Shown: piece after piece, positions 49,165-55,865 of the stretch
Position numbering within the stretch: the stretch's first letter is position 1
How the letters are laid out: the number at the start of each line of letters is the position of its first letter
Position numbers and translations under genes: made by a program
Notes under the pieces: generated by a model
Told to the model about the DNA's origin: nothing
The model's database searches: none
The model's input: the letters and a program-made list of their open reading frames with translations, nothing else
Source of the DNA: Burkholderiaceae bacterium
Lineage (GTDB): Bacteria; Pseudomonadota; Gammaproteobacteria; Burkholderiales; Burkholderiaceae_F
Assembly: GCA_019236735.1 (NCBI GenBank)
Contig: JAFAIM010000060.1
Span: 1-64,000 of the forward strand
Direction: 5' to 3'
Length of the DNA: 64,000 nucleotides

Positions 49165-52100
49165 GTGGCCGATTCGACTCTGTTTGATCGCAGCCGCTTG
49201 CGGGCGCGCACGCCGGCCGGGCCGCCCGACCTCGCCTCCGGCGCGCGCATGCTGGCGATCGAATCGGCGCCGCGCGGCGCGCCACAGGCGCCCGTGACGC
49301 CCCCGTGGCGCCAGTCGCAGGGTGCGCAAGTGTCGGAACCGTCGCTGCCGCCCGCGACCCTGTTCGACGAGCTGCCCGACGCGGTCCTGCGTTTCGACCG
49401 CTGCCTCGTCGTCGTATACGCGAACGCCCAGGTCGAGCGCGCCACCGCGATCTCGCGTGCCGCCTTCATCGGGCGACCCCTGAACCACGTCGACAACTTC
49501 GCCCAATACGCGCCGCTGTGGGAGTCGAAGCTGGCGGCGACGTTCGATTCTCTGGACGCGCGCAGCTTCAAGTTCACGTACGCACACCCGGCCGGGCAGA
49601 AGACCTTTGAGGTGCGTCTGCTGATCGAGCGCGACCACCAAGGCGAAGCCGCTTTCGTGACGGCGATCGTGCGCGACGTGACGGTGCCGCGCGGCGCGCT
49701 GCAGGCAACTCGCGCAGCCGACGCGATGCTGTCGACGCTGATGGCCAGCGCGCGCGTCGGCATGGCGGTGCTCGACGCCAACCTGCGCTATGTGCGCTGT
49801 AACGCGCATCTGGCGCAGCTGCTTGGGGTCGAAACCGGACAGCTGCTGGGCCGGCGTTTGGACCAGGCGTTCGACCACTCCTCGCAGCCCGCCGTGATGC
49901 GCTCCCTGGAGCGGCTGCGCGACGGCGAAGTGCGCGTTCCGCAGCAGATCGAATACGAGTTCGGCGCCGGCGACCACCCGTGGGTGCGCGAGCGCCGTAC
50001 ACCCTTGTTTTCGCCGAGCGGTTCGTTCAGCGGCGTGTTCCTGACGGTCGAGCGGCTCGATCGCGAGCGGTTTGCCGAGACCTCGCTGGCGGCGCTGCGG
50101 CAAGCGCTCGACTCGGCCGGCGAAATGGTGCTGGAGATCGGCCGCGACGGATCGATCGTGGACGCGAACGAGACCGCGCTTGCGTGGCTCGGCTACAGCC
50201 GCGAACAGCTGACCGGACTGCGCCTGAATGCGATCGACGCCAGCCTGACCGACGAGCGCTTCGCCGAGATGATCGAGGCCCTGCTCGGCCGCGGCGCTTT
50301 CCACGGCGAGGCGCGCTACCGCACCCGCCTGGGCTCGGAATTCGAAGTCGACCTAGTTTTGCAGCGAGTCGAGCACAGCGAGCGCGAATTCATCTTCCTG
50401 CTGGTGCGCGACATCTCGGACCGCAAACGCATCGAGCTGGAGCTGGCGGAGAACGCCGAGCGCCTGGCGACGATCTTCAACGAGAGTCCGGTGGGGATCC
50501 TGCAGCTGGACTCGGCGTTCCGGATCCGTCGCGCCAATCGCGCTGCGTGCGCGCTGCTCGGCTATCGCGAAAACGACCTGCTCGGGCGCGATCCGGTCCG
50601 GATGATGCACCCCGACGACGTCCAGGCCAGCCTGAAACAGCGTGAACGCCTGATGCAGTACCTGCCGGCCGGCGCCGCCCTCGTGTCGGAGCCGGATCGG
50701 CGGATGCTCGATCAAGAGGGTCGTACGGTCTGGGTCAAGCTCGGTTGGCGTGCGCTCGGCGCGGCCGACGCCTCGCGTGGCTACCTGCTGGTGATGGAGA
50801 ACTTCACCGACCAGAAGCTGTTCGAGGGGCAGCTGCGTGCGGCGCTGCGCGAACAGCAGTCGCTGCTGGAGACGATGAGCACCGGCGTGGTCAAGACACG
50901 CGACGGCCGGATCGTGCTGGCCAACCGCGAATTCGCTCGCATGTTCGGCTTCACCGACTCCGACGCCATCGGAATGTCGCTTTGGCAACTATGCCTGCGA
51001 AACGACGGGCAGGCACCCGAGGACGTTCCTGGTCTGCCGGCGGTGCGCCCCGGTTTGACCACGAGTGCAGAGGTCGTTCTGTACGGGCGTGACGGCCAGC
51101 CGCGCTGGTGCCTGGTCCAGGCGCGCCCGCTCGACGACGGCGACGGCGACGGCGAGGCGCCGGCCGAGGCGATCTTCACGTTCCAGGACTTCACCGAGCT
51201 GCGCCAGCAACGCGAGGCGACGGCGCGCGCGGCGGCCGAACTGCAGGCGCTGCTGGCCGAGAGCCGGGCGATCTTCGACACCGCGCTGGTCGGGTTGCTG
51301 TTCGTGCGCGACGGGCGACTGGCGCGCGCCAACCCGGCGATGGAAGATTTGCTCGGCTGCGACGCCGGCACGCTGGTCGACCAGATTCAGTTGTTCGCGC
51401 ATCCATCCGACAAGCTGCTGCTGACGAGCCTGGAGGAGCGCTTCGAGACGATCCGCAACTCGGGAGCGTGCGAATTCGAGATGCTGCTGTACCGCCGCCG
51501 TGGCGATCCGATCTGGGTAGCAGTGCAGGGACGCGCGGTCAATCCGGAGCGCCCCGAGCTGGGACACATCTTCGCGTTCGCCGACATCGACGAGCGCAAG
51601 CGTTCCGAACGCGAGCTGCGTTTGGCTCTGAACGAGCTGCAGCTAATTTTCGATAACGCGCTCGTAGCGATCCTGTACGTGGCCAATGACCTGGTCGTCA
51701 AAGCCAATGCCGCCGCCGAGCGCATGTTCGGTTTCGCTGCAGCGGACTTGCGCGAGCTGCAGTTCGCACTGCTGTTCGCAGATCCGGCAAGCTGGCAGAC
51801 GGTTCAGTCGCGCTGGGACAACGGCGCGAGCGGATCGGCCACGTTCGAGCACCTGATGCGGCGTGCCGACGGGTCGGCATTCTGGTGTGCCGGCAACGTG
51901 CGGCCGCTCGAGCCCGAAGCGCCTGAGCGCGGCGTCATCGTCACGATGATGGACGTGGACGCGCGGCACCGCTCCGAGGACGAGGTGCGCTCGATGCGCA
52001 ACTACCTAGACCTCGTGATCGAGAACTTGCCGGTGCTGGTTTCGGTGCGCGACGTCAAGAGCGGCCGCTTCGTCAGCTTGAACCGCGCCGGCGAGTCGAT

Positions 52101-53412
52101 GACCGGGCTGGCGCGCGATCAGGTCGTCGGACGCACGTGGCACGAAGTCTACGGCCGGCAGTTCGCCGACCTGTACCGTGAGATGGACCGCAAGGCGATC
52201 GTTGACGGCCACCAGATCTACCGGCCACGCGATGTCATGCTGAGAGCCGACGGCCGCACGCTGATCGTCAACCAGCGAGTCGTGCCGGTGTTCGACGGCA
52301 GCACCCCAGGCGACGAGAACGCCGCCAGCTATGTGATGTCGATCGTCGACGATCTGACCGATGAGGTGCGCGCCGAGACGGCGCTGCGCGAAACCGAGTC
52401 GCGCTTCCGCCAGCTCGCCGAGAACATCGACCAGTTGGTGTTCATCGCCAACGCCAATCTCACCGAGGTGTTGTACGTCAACTCGCGCTACACACAACTG
52501 GTGGGGGCGCCGCCGTCGGAGCTGCTGGACGATCCCGGCAACGCTTTGCGCCACGTGCATTTCGACGACGCTGCGCGGCTGGCGCGCGAACTGCCGCGCG
52601 CGATCGCCGGCCTGCGTCACTTGAAGCGCGCGGAGCTGTCGGTGCGGGTGGACCATCCGAGCGGCGGCGTGCGCGTGATCAGCGTGCGGCTGAACCCAGC
52701 CCGGATGCTCGACGGGCAGCTGCGGGTTTTCGGAGTGGCCGAGGACGTCACGGCCCGGATGGAGGCCGAGCGGCAGCGCCTGGAGGATGCGGTCGGTCAG
52801 CGCGACGTGCTGGTGCGCGAAGTCCACCACCGCATCAAAAACAACTTGCAGGGCGTCGCCGGCCTGCTGCAACACATGGCGAGCGGCAAGCCGGAGGTCT
52901 CGGTCCAGCTGAACGAGATCGCCGGCCAGATCCAGGCGATTGCACAGGTGCACGGCCTGCAGATCGGTTCCGGCGGTACGCTGCCGGTGCTCGGCGTAGT
53001 GCAGGGCATCTTCAACAATCTCACCGCGATGTTCGGGGTCGAGATACGGCTTGCGCCGTCGGCAGCAGCGCTGTGGCGCTGGGGCCTGCCCGAAGGCGAG
53101 GCGGTCCCGCTGGCCCTGGTGATCAACGAGTTGGGCACCAACGCGATCAAGTACCGCGAGGTGCGCCAGCTGCCGCTGGAAGTTCGGATCGAGACGCGTT
53201 CCGATGGATTGGCAGTGCGGATCGAGAACGCGGGCCGCCTGCCCGCCGGATTCGATCTGGCGCGGATATCCTCCGGGGTGTCGGGCCTGGGCTTGATCAA
53301 GGCGCTGCTGCCGCGCCGCGGAGCGCAATTGGCGCTGGAGCAGGAGGATGACCGCGTCGTCGCAACTCTCGCGCTGTCGGCGCCGGCAGTACGCGAAGAC
53401 CGGGCGGGTTGA
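49165..53412 (+). CDS. Cytosolic sensor histidine kinase with nine PAS domains (HisKA_2 type)
   Basis: The 1415-residue protein has no membrane segment or signal peptide. I count nine consecutive PAS modules of about 120-130 residues, each opening with a helix and ending in a D-(I/V)-(S/T)-(D/E) linker (for example VRDISDRK, MENFTDQK, FADIDERK, VAEDVTARM). The kinase part starts near 1215 with VREVHHRIKNNLQGVAGLLQH, the HisKA_2 phosphoacceptor box, and a HATPase domain (LVINELGTNAIKYRE, SGVSGLGLIK). It pairs with the ANTAR regulator next door, a partnership known for HisKA_2 kinases. The start is a GTG; a later start is possible. Confidence 0.9.
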   Translation: MADSTLFDRSRLRARTPAGPPDLASGARMLAIESAPRGAPQAPVTPPWRQSQGAQVSEPSLPPATLFDELPDAVLRFDRCLVVVYANAQVERATAISRAAFIGRPLNHVDNFAQYAPLWESKLAATFDSLDARSFKFTYAHPAGQKTFEVRLLIERDHQGEAAFVTAIVRDVTVPRGALQATRAADAMLSTLMASARVGMAVLDANLRYVRCNAHLAQLLGVETGQLLGRRLDQAFDHSSQPAVMRSLERLRDGEVRVPQQIEYEFGAGDHPWVRERRTPLFSPSGSFSGVFLTVERLDRERFAETSLAALRQALDSAGEMVLEIGRDGSIVDANETALAWLGYSREQLTGLRLNAIDASLTDERFAEMIEALLGRGAFHGEARYRTRLGSEFEVDLVLQRVEHSEREFIFLLVRDISDRKRIELELAENAERLATIFNESPVGILQLDSAFRIRRANRAACALLGYRENDLLGRDPVRMMHPDDVQASLKQRERLMQYLPAGAALVSEPDRRMLDQEGRTVWVKLGWRALGAADASRGYLLVMENFTDQKLFEGQLRAALREQQSLLETMSTGVVKTRDGRIVLANREFARMFGFTDSDAIGMSLWQLCLRNDGQAPEDVPGLPAVRPGLTTSAEVVLYGRDGQPRWCLVQARPLDDGDGDGEAPAEAIFTFQDFTELRQQREATARAAAELQALLAESRAIFDTALVGLLFVRDGRLARANPAMEDLLGCDAGTLVDQIQLFAHPSDKLLLTSLEERFETIRNSGACEFEMLLYRRRGDPIWVAVQGRAVNPERPELGHIFAFADIDERKRSERELRLALNELQLIFDNALVAILYVANDLVVKANAAAERMFGFAAADLRELQFALLFADPASWQTVQSRWDNGASGSATFEHLMRRADGSAFWCAGNVRPLEPEAPERGVIVTMMDVDARHRSEDEVRSMRNYLDLVIENLPVLVSVRDVKSGRFVSLNRAGESMTGLARDQVVGRTWHEVYGRQFADLYREMDRKAIVDGHQIYRPRDVMLRADGRTLIVNQRVVPVFDGSTPGDENAASYVMSIVDDLTDEVRAETALRETESRFRQLAENIDQLVFIANANLTEVLYVNSRYTQLVGAPPSELLDDPGNALRHVHFDDAARLARELPRAIAGLRHLKRAELSVRVDHPSGGVRVISVRLNPARMLDGQLRVFGVAEDVTARMEAERQRLEDAVGQRDVLVREVHHRIKNNLQGVAGLLQHMASGKPEVSVQLNEIAGQIQAIAQVHGLQIGSGGTLPVLGVVQGIFNNLTAMFGVEIRLAPSAAALWRWGLPEGEAVPLALVINELGTNAIKYREVRQLPLEVRIETRSDGLAVRIENAGRLPAGFDLARISSGVSGLGLIKALLPRRGAQLALEQEDDRVVATLALSAPAVREDRAG

Positions 53413-53429
53413 CGAGGGGAGACCACGCG

Positions 53430-53600
53430 ATGTTAGTGGCATGTAACACCCGATTCGGTAGTGCCTTGCGCGCCTGGGCGGCCGACTGCTTTGTCGCTCG
53501 CCTCGCGAATACTCGCCTGATATTCGTCTCGGCTCGCTTCGCGCATTCGGCTCGCCCAGGCGTGCCTTTCCCTCCCGAATCGGGTGTCACATGTCACTAG
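53430..53600 (+). CDS. Short ORF through the palindromic repeat (likely former start of the regulator gene)
   Basis: An ATG at 53430, with a GAGGGGAG ribosome site eight bases before it, opens a 56-codon frame that runs through the whole inserted repeat (MLVACNTRFGSALRAWAADC... ending ESGVTCH). Its TAG at 53598-53600 overlaps the ATG of the response regulator at 53591. The ribosome site and ATG probably belonged to the regulator before the repeat inserted; the short ORF would now deliver ribosomes to the new start. The peptide itself is unlikely to have a function. Confidence 0.4.
   Translation: MLVACNTRFGSALRAWAADCFVARLANTRLIFVSARFAHSARPGVPFPPESGVTCH
53434..53599. repeat. 166-bp palindromic repeat element, full copy
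   Basis: Arms of 23 bp (53434-53456 and 53577-53599) match with two mismatches. The interior contains further inverted segments (GCGCCTGGGCG at 53469-53479 against CGCCCAGGCG at 53553-53562). Both strands are open in at least one frame. No transposase is encoded, so this is a MITE- or REP-like unit. Related copies are at 15700-15773 and 26762-26797. Confidence 0.88.
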
Positions 53601-54229
53601 GCGCGGCCAATGACCGGACCATCGGGGCGCGTCCCACCAGGATCCTGGTGGTCGACGACGATCGCCTCGTGCTTGCGACCGTAGTGGCGGGCTTACGGCA
53701 AGCGGGCTTCGAGGTACTGGAGGCCGACAACGGTGATGACGCAATTTTGCTTGCGCGTAACCACCGTCCTCGCCTGGCGATCCTCGACATGCGGATGCAG
53801 GGCAAGTCCGGCATGGACGTCGCGCGCTATCTGGCGTCGAACACATCGACCGGATTCATCTTTTTGTCGGCCTTCGGCGATCAATCGATTGTCGACGAGT
53901 CGGCGCGGCTGGGTGCGCTCGGATACCTGGTAAAGCCGATCGACATCCGCCAGATCGTTCCGGCGGTGAACGCTGCGTTGGCAAAGCTCGATGCCGGGCA
54001 GACACCGTCCGCGCCAGCGGCGCCGCGCGCGGCACTCGCCGCAGCCGCATCGGCTGCACGGGATGAAGCGATCGCGGTCGGGATCCTGATGGAGCGCTTG
54101 CGCCTCGATCAGGCGCGCGCGGTGGTCGCGCTGCGCGAGCAGGCGCGCGCCGAAGGTCGCAGCGTCGAGTCGCTCGCCAGCAGCATGGTCGAGGCCGCCA
54201 ACCGACTTAACTCGATCGCGCGCTCGTAG
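53591..54229 (+). CDS. Response regulator with ANTAR RNA-binding domain
   Basis: The 212-residue protein has a receiver domain (about 15-130; acidic pocket VDDDR, phospho-acceptor D66 in LAILDMRM, LSAF and LVKPID) and a C-terminal ANTAR domain (about 145-205: AVGILMERLRLDQARAVVALR), which binds paired hairpins in nascent RNA to prevent termination. The only usable start is the ATG inside the repeat arm at 53591. The last 99 bases are duplicated at 55669-55767. Targets are unknown; no twin-hairpin ANTAR site was identified by eye. Confidence 0.93.
   Translation: MSLGAANDRTIGARPTRILVVDDDRLVLATVVAGLRQAGFEVLEADNGDDAILLARNHRPRLAILDMRMQGKSGMDVARYLASNTSTGFIFLSAFGDQSIVDESARLGALGYLVKPIDIRQIVPAVNAALAKLDAGQTPSAPAAPRAALAAAASAARDEAIAVGILMERLRLDQARAVVALREQARAEGRSVESLASSMVEAANRLNSIARS
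54131..54229 (+). repeat. 99-bp direct repeat, copy A (3' end of the ANTAR gene)
   Basis: The last 33 codons of the regulator, including the stop, recur at 55669-55767 with four mismatches. Together the copies bracket 1.4 kb of accessory genes. Confidence 0.92.
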
Positions 54230-54232
54230 CGA

Positions 54233-54397
54233 ATGGTCGCAAGTTGTTTGCGGGCGTCGGCGACAATCATCGCGGCTTGTGTTTGTGTCGGCGCCGTAGC
54301 AATTGCGCAAGCACAAGGTGTGTATAAGACCGTCGGTCCGGATGGGCGAGTGACGCTCGTTACCGGCGCTCAGACGCGTTCGATCCGAGCTGCATAA
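54233..54397 (+). pseudogene. Truncated DUF4124-like secreted protein
   Basis: A 54-codon frame begins three bases after the regulator stop with a signal peptide (ATIIAACVCVGAVAIAQAQG) and VYKTVGPDGRVTL, the start of a DUF4124 domain. It then changes to unrelated residues and stops inside the convergent DUF1203 gene. I infer that the rest of the gene was lost when the adjoining segment arrived. Confidence 0.5.
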
Positions 54398-55668: not shown

Positions 55669-55767
55669 CTGCGCGAGCAGGCGCGCGCCGAAGGGCGCAG
55701 CGTCGAGTCGCTCGCCAGCAGCATGGTCGAGGCCGCCAACCGGCTCAACTCGATCGCGCGCTCCTAG
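55669..55767 (+). repeat. 99-bp direct repeat, copy B (orphan ANTAR tail)
   Basis: This second copy of the regulator 3' end (LREQARAEGRSVESLASSM...) has no receiver or start. It marks the right border of the inserted segment. Confidence 0.92.
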
Positions 55768-55865
55768 GAAATCGTCGGGACCGCGAAGGAGCCGGTCGCG
55801 AAGTCCAGCCATTCCTGGGTTCGGCGCGGTTCCTGACTACCGCTGTTGCGTGCAAAGGGAGCGTT

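Follow-up and report, generated by a model that had tools for sequence, protein, structure and literature searches.

Insertions at the starts of genes are usually read as knock-outs, and miniature inverted-repeat transposable elements (MITEs) are chiefly regarded as promoters, terminators or fusion peptides. Here, we describe a 166-bp repeat that interrupts codon 2 of a response-regulator gene located directly behind a histidine kinase gene, in a 64,000-nucleotide stretch of DNA (contig JAFAIM010000060.1, positions 1 to 64,000; hereafter, the window) from the draft genome of an uncultured soil betaproteobacterium (3.32 Mb in 95 contigs). Judging from sequence comparison, the repeat is probably a MITE whose ends serve as a termination-reinitiation cassette, such that insertions on first codons need not destroy genes. 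One element family seems to replace the starts of six genes in this genome, nuoI, cheZ and the two-component regulator among them, restoring translation rather than generating fusions. This suggests a way for a mobile element to widen its range of harmless sites and offers natural constructs for the study of hairpin-gated re-initiation in bacteria.

Several described systems share parts of this arrangement. MITEAba12 of Acinetobacter is likewise a short, non-autonomous element with inverted ends, which contribute the first four residues (MQQS) of coding sequences at three loci; in contrast to the present case, neither a leading open reading frame (ORF) through the element nor a phase-locked restart has been described, and an outward promoter is discussed (PMC6382973). 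The Correia/NEMIS elements of Neisseria resemble ours in being short (about 107-155 bp) and bounded by TA, in having long inverted ends and a target-site duplication, in their strong RNA hairpin and in occurring as long and short forms; RNase III processing, promoters and ORF fusions are the effects known for them, not restart codons (PMC2229807). Rickettsia palindromic elements (RPE), also repeats of about 150 bp, are tolerated in protein-coding genes by virtue of an open frame (PMC10969869); they are translated within the host protein, whereas the frame of the present element terminates and the gene restarts. Termini of the Coxiella QMITEs, too, provide parts of genes, namely stop codons and terminal residues; the effects described there take the form of stop codons and of in-frame fusions, C-terminal or internal, with no element-borne restart among them (PMC5896051). 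Finally, termination-reinitiation coupling involves, as here, a short stop/start overlap, with upstream translation opening a hairpin over the downstream site (PMC6728339, PMC12548453), but the usual overlaps are 4, 1 or 8 nt and lie between host genes, whereas here the overlap is 10 nt and is brought by a mobile element. In the open-licence literature, we found nothing closer than MITEAba12, RPE and QMITEs to a MITE that supplies a coupled restart. MITEAba12 can be considered a partial precedent for element-supplied starts.

The kinase ORF ends with TGA (53410-53412) and is followed by a ribosome binding site, GAGGGGAG, and by ATG 53430, as reported in a preliminary description of this locus that was made from the sequence alone. 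The 166-bp repeat placed there behind this ATG indeed spans 53434-53599; it is an imperfect palindrome with 47-nt arms that are 81% complementary by ungapped count. The frame from ATG 53430 was correctly said to be open through the entire repeat (56 codons), but the stop does not fall on the regulator's present start codon, as had been proposed: TAG 53598-53600 sits 7 nt past ATG 53591, and the two ORFs overlap by 10 nt. ATG 53591, from which a 212-amino acid response-regulator ORF begins, is supplied by the repeat's own sequence, as suspected, and is the only usable in-frame start: there is no ATG, GTG or TTG in the regulator frame 5' of it, and the next one, a GTG at codon 20, lies within the first strand of the receiver domain. 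The receiver domain is a clear Pfam match, whereas the ANTAR domain named in the preliminary description remains just below threshold (26.6 bits vs the 27.3 cut-off, E 5e-6). An open frame through one copy was considered as a sign of selection and rejected, because shuffled element interiors, against which openness was judged, were open in 55% of cases on one strand and in 18% on both.

The genome of the same-genus bacterium BP_15, a metagenome-assembled genome (G001; L032/L109) and the single one of its genus compared, contains the regulator gene without the repeat. There, the gene starts MQGAANDRTIGARPTR at an ATG, with the ribosome site AGAGGAGG upstream, and the encoded N-terminus, M-Q-G-A-A-N-D-R, corresponds to ATG 53430 joined to the sequence behind the repeat (M-x-G-A-A-N-D-R), the alignment picking up again at base 53600. 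The comparison with a repeat-free relative had been set beforehand as a refutation test for a displacement of the original start by about 160 bases, and the claim passed, the insertion having shifted the start by 161 bp. When the flanks in the window are joined via one TA, they read ATG-TTA-GGC, which preserves the frame of ATG-CAG-GGC in G001; for hyfB, flanks joined in this manner, ATGCTGGGCC[TA]GACGCAATC vs ATGCTCGACCTCGACACAATA in G001, restore the native frame. Both sets of flanks need exactly one TA to rejoin in frame, and these empty sites thus point to a TA target-site duplication by the element. Joined flanks of eight other sites were compared with G001 as well, where 7 of the 8 found a match, none of them containing the element; the joined sctV flanks had no match in G001 and were compared with another genome, G011, instead. 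A draft of 95 contigs with a multi-copy element invites the suspicion that repeats were misjoined in assembly. Such an artefact is, in our judgment, extremely improbable, given that the flanks rejoin exactly through one TA and that the flanking gene order (kinase-regulator, nuoH-nuoI and others) is as in relatives; the regulator lies directly behind the kinase in other members of the bacterial family, with ATGA overlaps in some.

Chance does not account for the repeat itself. In the source genome, about 28 copies or remnants can be recognised, 9 of them near full length at 89-100% identity, along with many that are shorter or partial. At up to three mismatches, the 22-nt terminal pattern matches 38 ends, compared to 0 for the reversed control pattern, and the window holds 4 terminal-repeat matches vs 0.11 expected. 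Complete copies are 166, 84, 74, 73 or 65 bp long. Read outward, both ends conform to GGGTG-N4-ATG-CCA-CTA-(G); the A-type end (TAGTGGCATGTAACACCC) gives GGGTGTTAC-ATG-CCA-CTA, and a C-type end (GGCCTGTAAC) is without the ATG. With its size below 200 bp (65-166), inverted TAGTGGCATGTAACACCC ends, TA termini (the TA is gone from one end of some old copies), multiple dispersed copies and no internal transposase gene, the element resembles the bacterial TA-target MITEs of the Correia/ERIC type; the Correia terminus includes TAGTGG. Repetitive extragenic palindromes and bacterial interspersed mosaic elements (REP/BIME) are 20-40 bp palindromes with a conserved tetranucleotide tag (GTAG or CGTC) at one end, and the 65-166 bp unit with symmetric, TA-bounded ends does not fit this description. 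A non-autonomous, TA-inserting transposable element of the MITE type is the best explanation of these features, with transposition presumably carried out by a transposase acting in trans. The one DDE_3 (IS630-type) transposase of the source genome (L108:400-1600), apparently intact, was rejected as the mobiliser, its ends (CTAGTATCTAGTTGC) being unrelated to those of the element. Elsewhere, the element family is rare: there is a weak partial match in G001, and C-type copies occur in two further genomes of the bacterial family (G017/G028) and in one genome among 399 sampled from the order, the end pattern not being found in the remainder of either sample.

The short copy in the window lies inside the tatC stop codon; because the element starts with G after TA, insertion into TAG regenerates TAG.

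The arrangement at the regulator is shared by five more genes and thus belongs to the element as such rather than being a one-off. In all six genes (regulator, hyfB, nuoI, cheZ, a speE-like gene and a sctV-like gene), the old start upstream opens an ORF running into the element, the stop of this leading ORF (TAG or TAA) follows the A of the element ATG by exactly 7 nt, with a 10-nt overlap, and the gene proceeds in its old frame from the element-borne ATG, the downstream ORF being intact and full length. Hence, each of the six has an upstream ORF ending a few nucleotides from the downstream start, as in termination-reinitiation coupling, and in none (6/6 frames ending at TAG/TAA) is the element translated within the host protein in the manner of RPE. 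The leading ORF comprises 56 codons for the regulator and 58 for HyfB, both starting with an ATG that matches the old start in G001; 27 codons for NuoI (GTGAGCAAG; G001, ATGAGCAAG) and 27 for CheZ (ATGGCACCC; G001, ATGGCTCAG), matched by position; 37 codons for the SpeE-like protein, from a less certain TTG; and 13 codons for the SctV-like export protein, from ATGAGG (ATGAGC in G011), each of which overlaps the upstream stop. For annotation, this is a warning that the short ORFs ahead of these genes are leaders. Genes near element copies were called with a simple script that had learned codon usage from the window, and identities were checked with family models for eight named genes only. At pilD, a PFK gene and a gspE-like gene, the element ATG is in frame but these were left out of the count, since another plausible start is kept (at pilD, possibly a GTG 4 codons further on).

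In cheZ (L091:2960-3010), the gene start and an element-derived unit occur twice in tandem (MPLDANYMPLDAN), yielding two in-frame element-type ATGs. In front of purF (L099:2980-3022), a small remnant encodes a short leader, MPLGA*, that terminates immediately ahead of the native ATG and in another frame.

The reading frame logic follows from the ends. On entry from the left, the NTA phase (TA at codon positions 2-3) is open, the TAG phase meets a stop immediately and the third phase runs into TAA after no more than a few codons. Because the TA of the far end, ATG CCA CTA, again occupies codon positions 2-3, every NTA insertion restarts in frame. Given a TA-to-TA distance of 2 mod 3 (164 or 71), CAC TAG closes the leading frame, the +1-frame TAG being made of the terminal TA and the flanking G. 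All complete copies between a start and its gene body (4/4) are in the NTA phase. The cheZ and speE copies are each one base short of the 74-bp form, through different deletions, and with a distance of 71 have their leading ORFs in the terminating frame; the same is true of the truncated copies at nuoI and sctV.

These features can be combined into the following scheme. The element would enter an NTA codon near the start of a gene, the native ribosome site and start codon would still launch translation, and the launched frame would stay open across the palindrome and terminate at the TAG located 7 nt beyond the ATG of the element. Ribosomes on the leading ORF would melt the hairpin that otherwise hides the new start, terminate and then re-initiate on the element ATG, automatically in the old frame, so that the product would be almost normal, with the first few residues altered (for the regulator, MSLGAAND.. 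instead of the inferred MLGAAND..). RNA unfolding and ribosome re-use are the two accepted models of coupling (PMC12548453), and both appear to agree with this layout. Thus, we infer that regulator translation is actually coupled to the leading ORF and that hairpin melting and re-initiation at the restart signal allowed the insertions to survive.

The predicted fold of the repeat RNA in the window has an energy of -123.9 kcal/mol (z = -6.3). At the regulator, HyfB, CheZ and SpeE, the new start is predicted to be buried in the hairpin (mean unpaired 0.00-0.09), compared to 0.40-0.51 without the upstream arm; in the window copy, two positions of the right end (GTGTCAC-ATG-TCA) do not agree with the left, with weaker pairing around the new start. 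For the truncated nuoI and sctV copies, the predicted unpaired fractions at the start are 0.35 and 0.48; such partial accessibility would suit a different explanation, namely, that GGGTG-N4-ATG recruits ribosomes by itself, uncoupled, and the leading ORF is a harmless relic. The anti-Shine-Dalgarno (anti-SD) pairing of about -6.4 kcal/mol with workable spacing is compatible with this possibility, as is MITEAba12, the ends of which supply the MQQS start in three loci where promoter proximity, not coupling, was suggested (PMC6382973). We nevertheless consider an uncoupled start rather unlikely, because structure prediction places the start within a closed stem in intact copies, full and short alike, and the decayed cheZ, speE, nuoI and sctV copies all retain the leading frame terminating at 7 nt, which a relic would not need.

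The same strong hairpin over the new start could instead point to harmful insertions, with little or no translation of the regulator and of the other affected genes and their decay into pseudogenes under way, all the more as the insertions seem recent (the copies are up to 98% alike, and none is found in G001 at comparable sites). Damage is quite improbable, since all six downstream ORFs are uninterrupted and of full length (among them nuoI, with its expected importance for respiration), only gene-restoring frames are observed near starts and the restart is kept in decayed copies.

Several observations weigh against a termination-reinitiation cassette. The phase agreement (4/4, or 1/81 if random) was noted post hoc and is in part to be expected, as no gene can do without a start; the phase and frame figures overlap and were unplanned, and are therefore suggestive only. 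The SD-like match is weak at intact ends (-6.2 to -7.2 kcal/mol). The normal regulator start in G001 is predicted to be poorly accessible as well (0.12), so that folding alone is no proof of gating. HyfB has an extra in-frame ATG and SpeE an in-frame TTG inside the element, CheZ has a second in-frame ATG 7 codons downstream, and the native speE start (TTG) is uncertain. No mobilising transposase with matching ends was found in the genome, and since draft genomes may lack the parent insertion sequence, we label the element MITE-like. Going one step further, selection might have shaped the ends for self-repair, combining an open frame in the leader with an outward SD-ATG-stop that would, in one of three phases and through obligate coupling, keep a gene working after insertion among its first codons; we put this forward as a tentative and somewhat doubtful idea.

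Table 1. Features of the kinase-regulator junction and the second copy of the element in the window
Feature	Coordinates	Strand	Evidence
Multi-PAS HisKA_2/HWE-type histidine kinase, upstream partner	49165..53412 (start predicted)	+	ORF; Pfam PAS + HisKA_2
Native regulator ribosome binding site, GAGGGGAG	53414..53421	+	Sequence; anti-SD duplex -8.3 kcal/mol
Leading ORF, 56 codons, from original regulator ATG through element to TAG 53598-53600	53430..53600	+	ORF; orthologous start in G001
MITE-like element, 166 bp including TA at each end (TA duplication 53434-53435 / 53598-53599)	53434..53599	.	Repeat search; empty site in G001
Left terminal inverted repeat, TAGTGGCATGTAACACCCGATTCGG; NTA phase, GTG GCA TGT AAC ACC CGA TTC, open	53434..53458	+	Sequence
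Right terminal inverted repeat, CCGAATCGGGTGTCACATGTCACTA, bearing the putative outward restart signal	53575..53599	+	Sequence
SD-like GGGTG, 4 nt 5' of element ATG	53582..53586	+	Anti-SD duplex -6.4 kcal/mol
Response regulator with ANTAR-like C-terminus; first codons, ATG TCA CTA, element-derived	53591..54229	+	ORF; Pfam
Short 74-bp copy of the same element, at tatC stop codon	15700..15773	.	Terminal-repeat match

Scans of 53300-53750 for sigma-70 promoters and terminators returned nothing, other promoter types being outside the scan, so that an element-borne promoter or terminator is unsupported. The Rfam scan of the window detected one tRNA only; the repeat is thus covered by no known RNA family. 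Downstream of the regulator, at a distance of 1.5 kb, a 109-bp stretch (55669-55777) shares 94% identity with the 3' end of the regulator gene (54131-54239). Among the ORFs of the oppositely oriented block between the two are some similar to a PIN-type toxin and a small antitoxin, and the 109-bp stretch looks like a duplication created as this block inserted.
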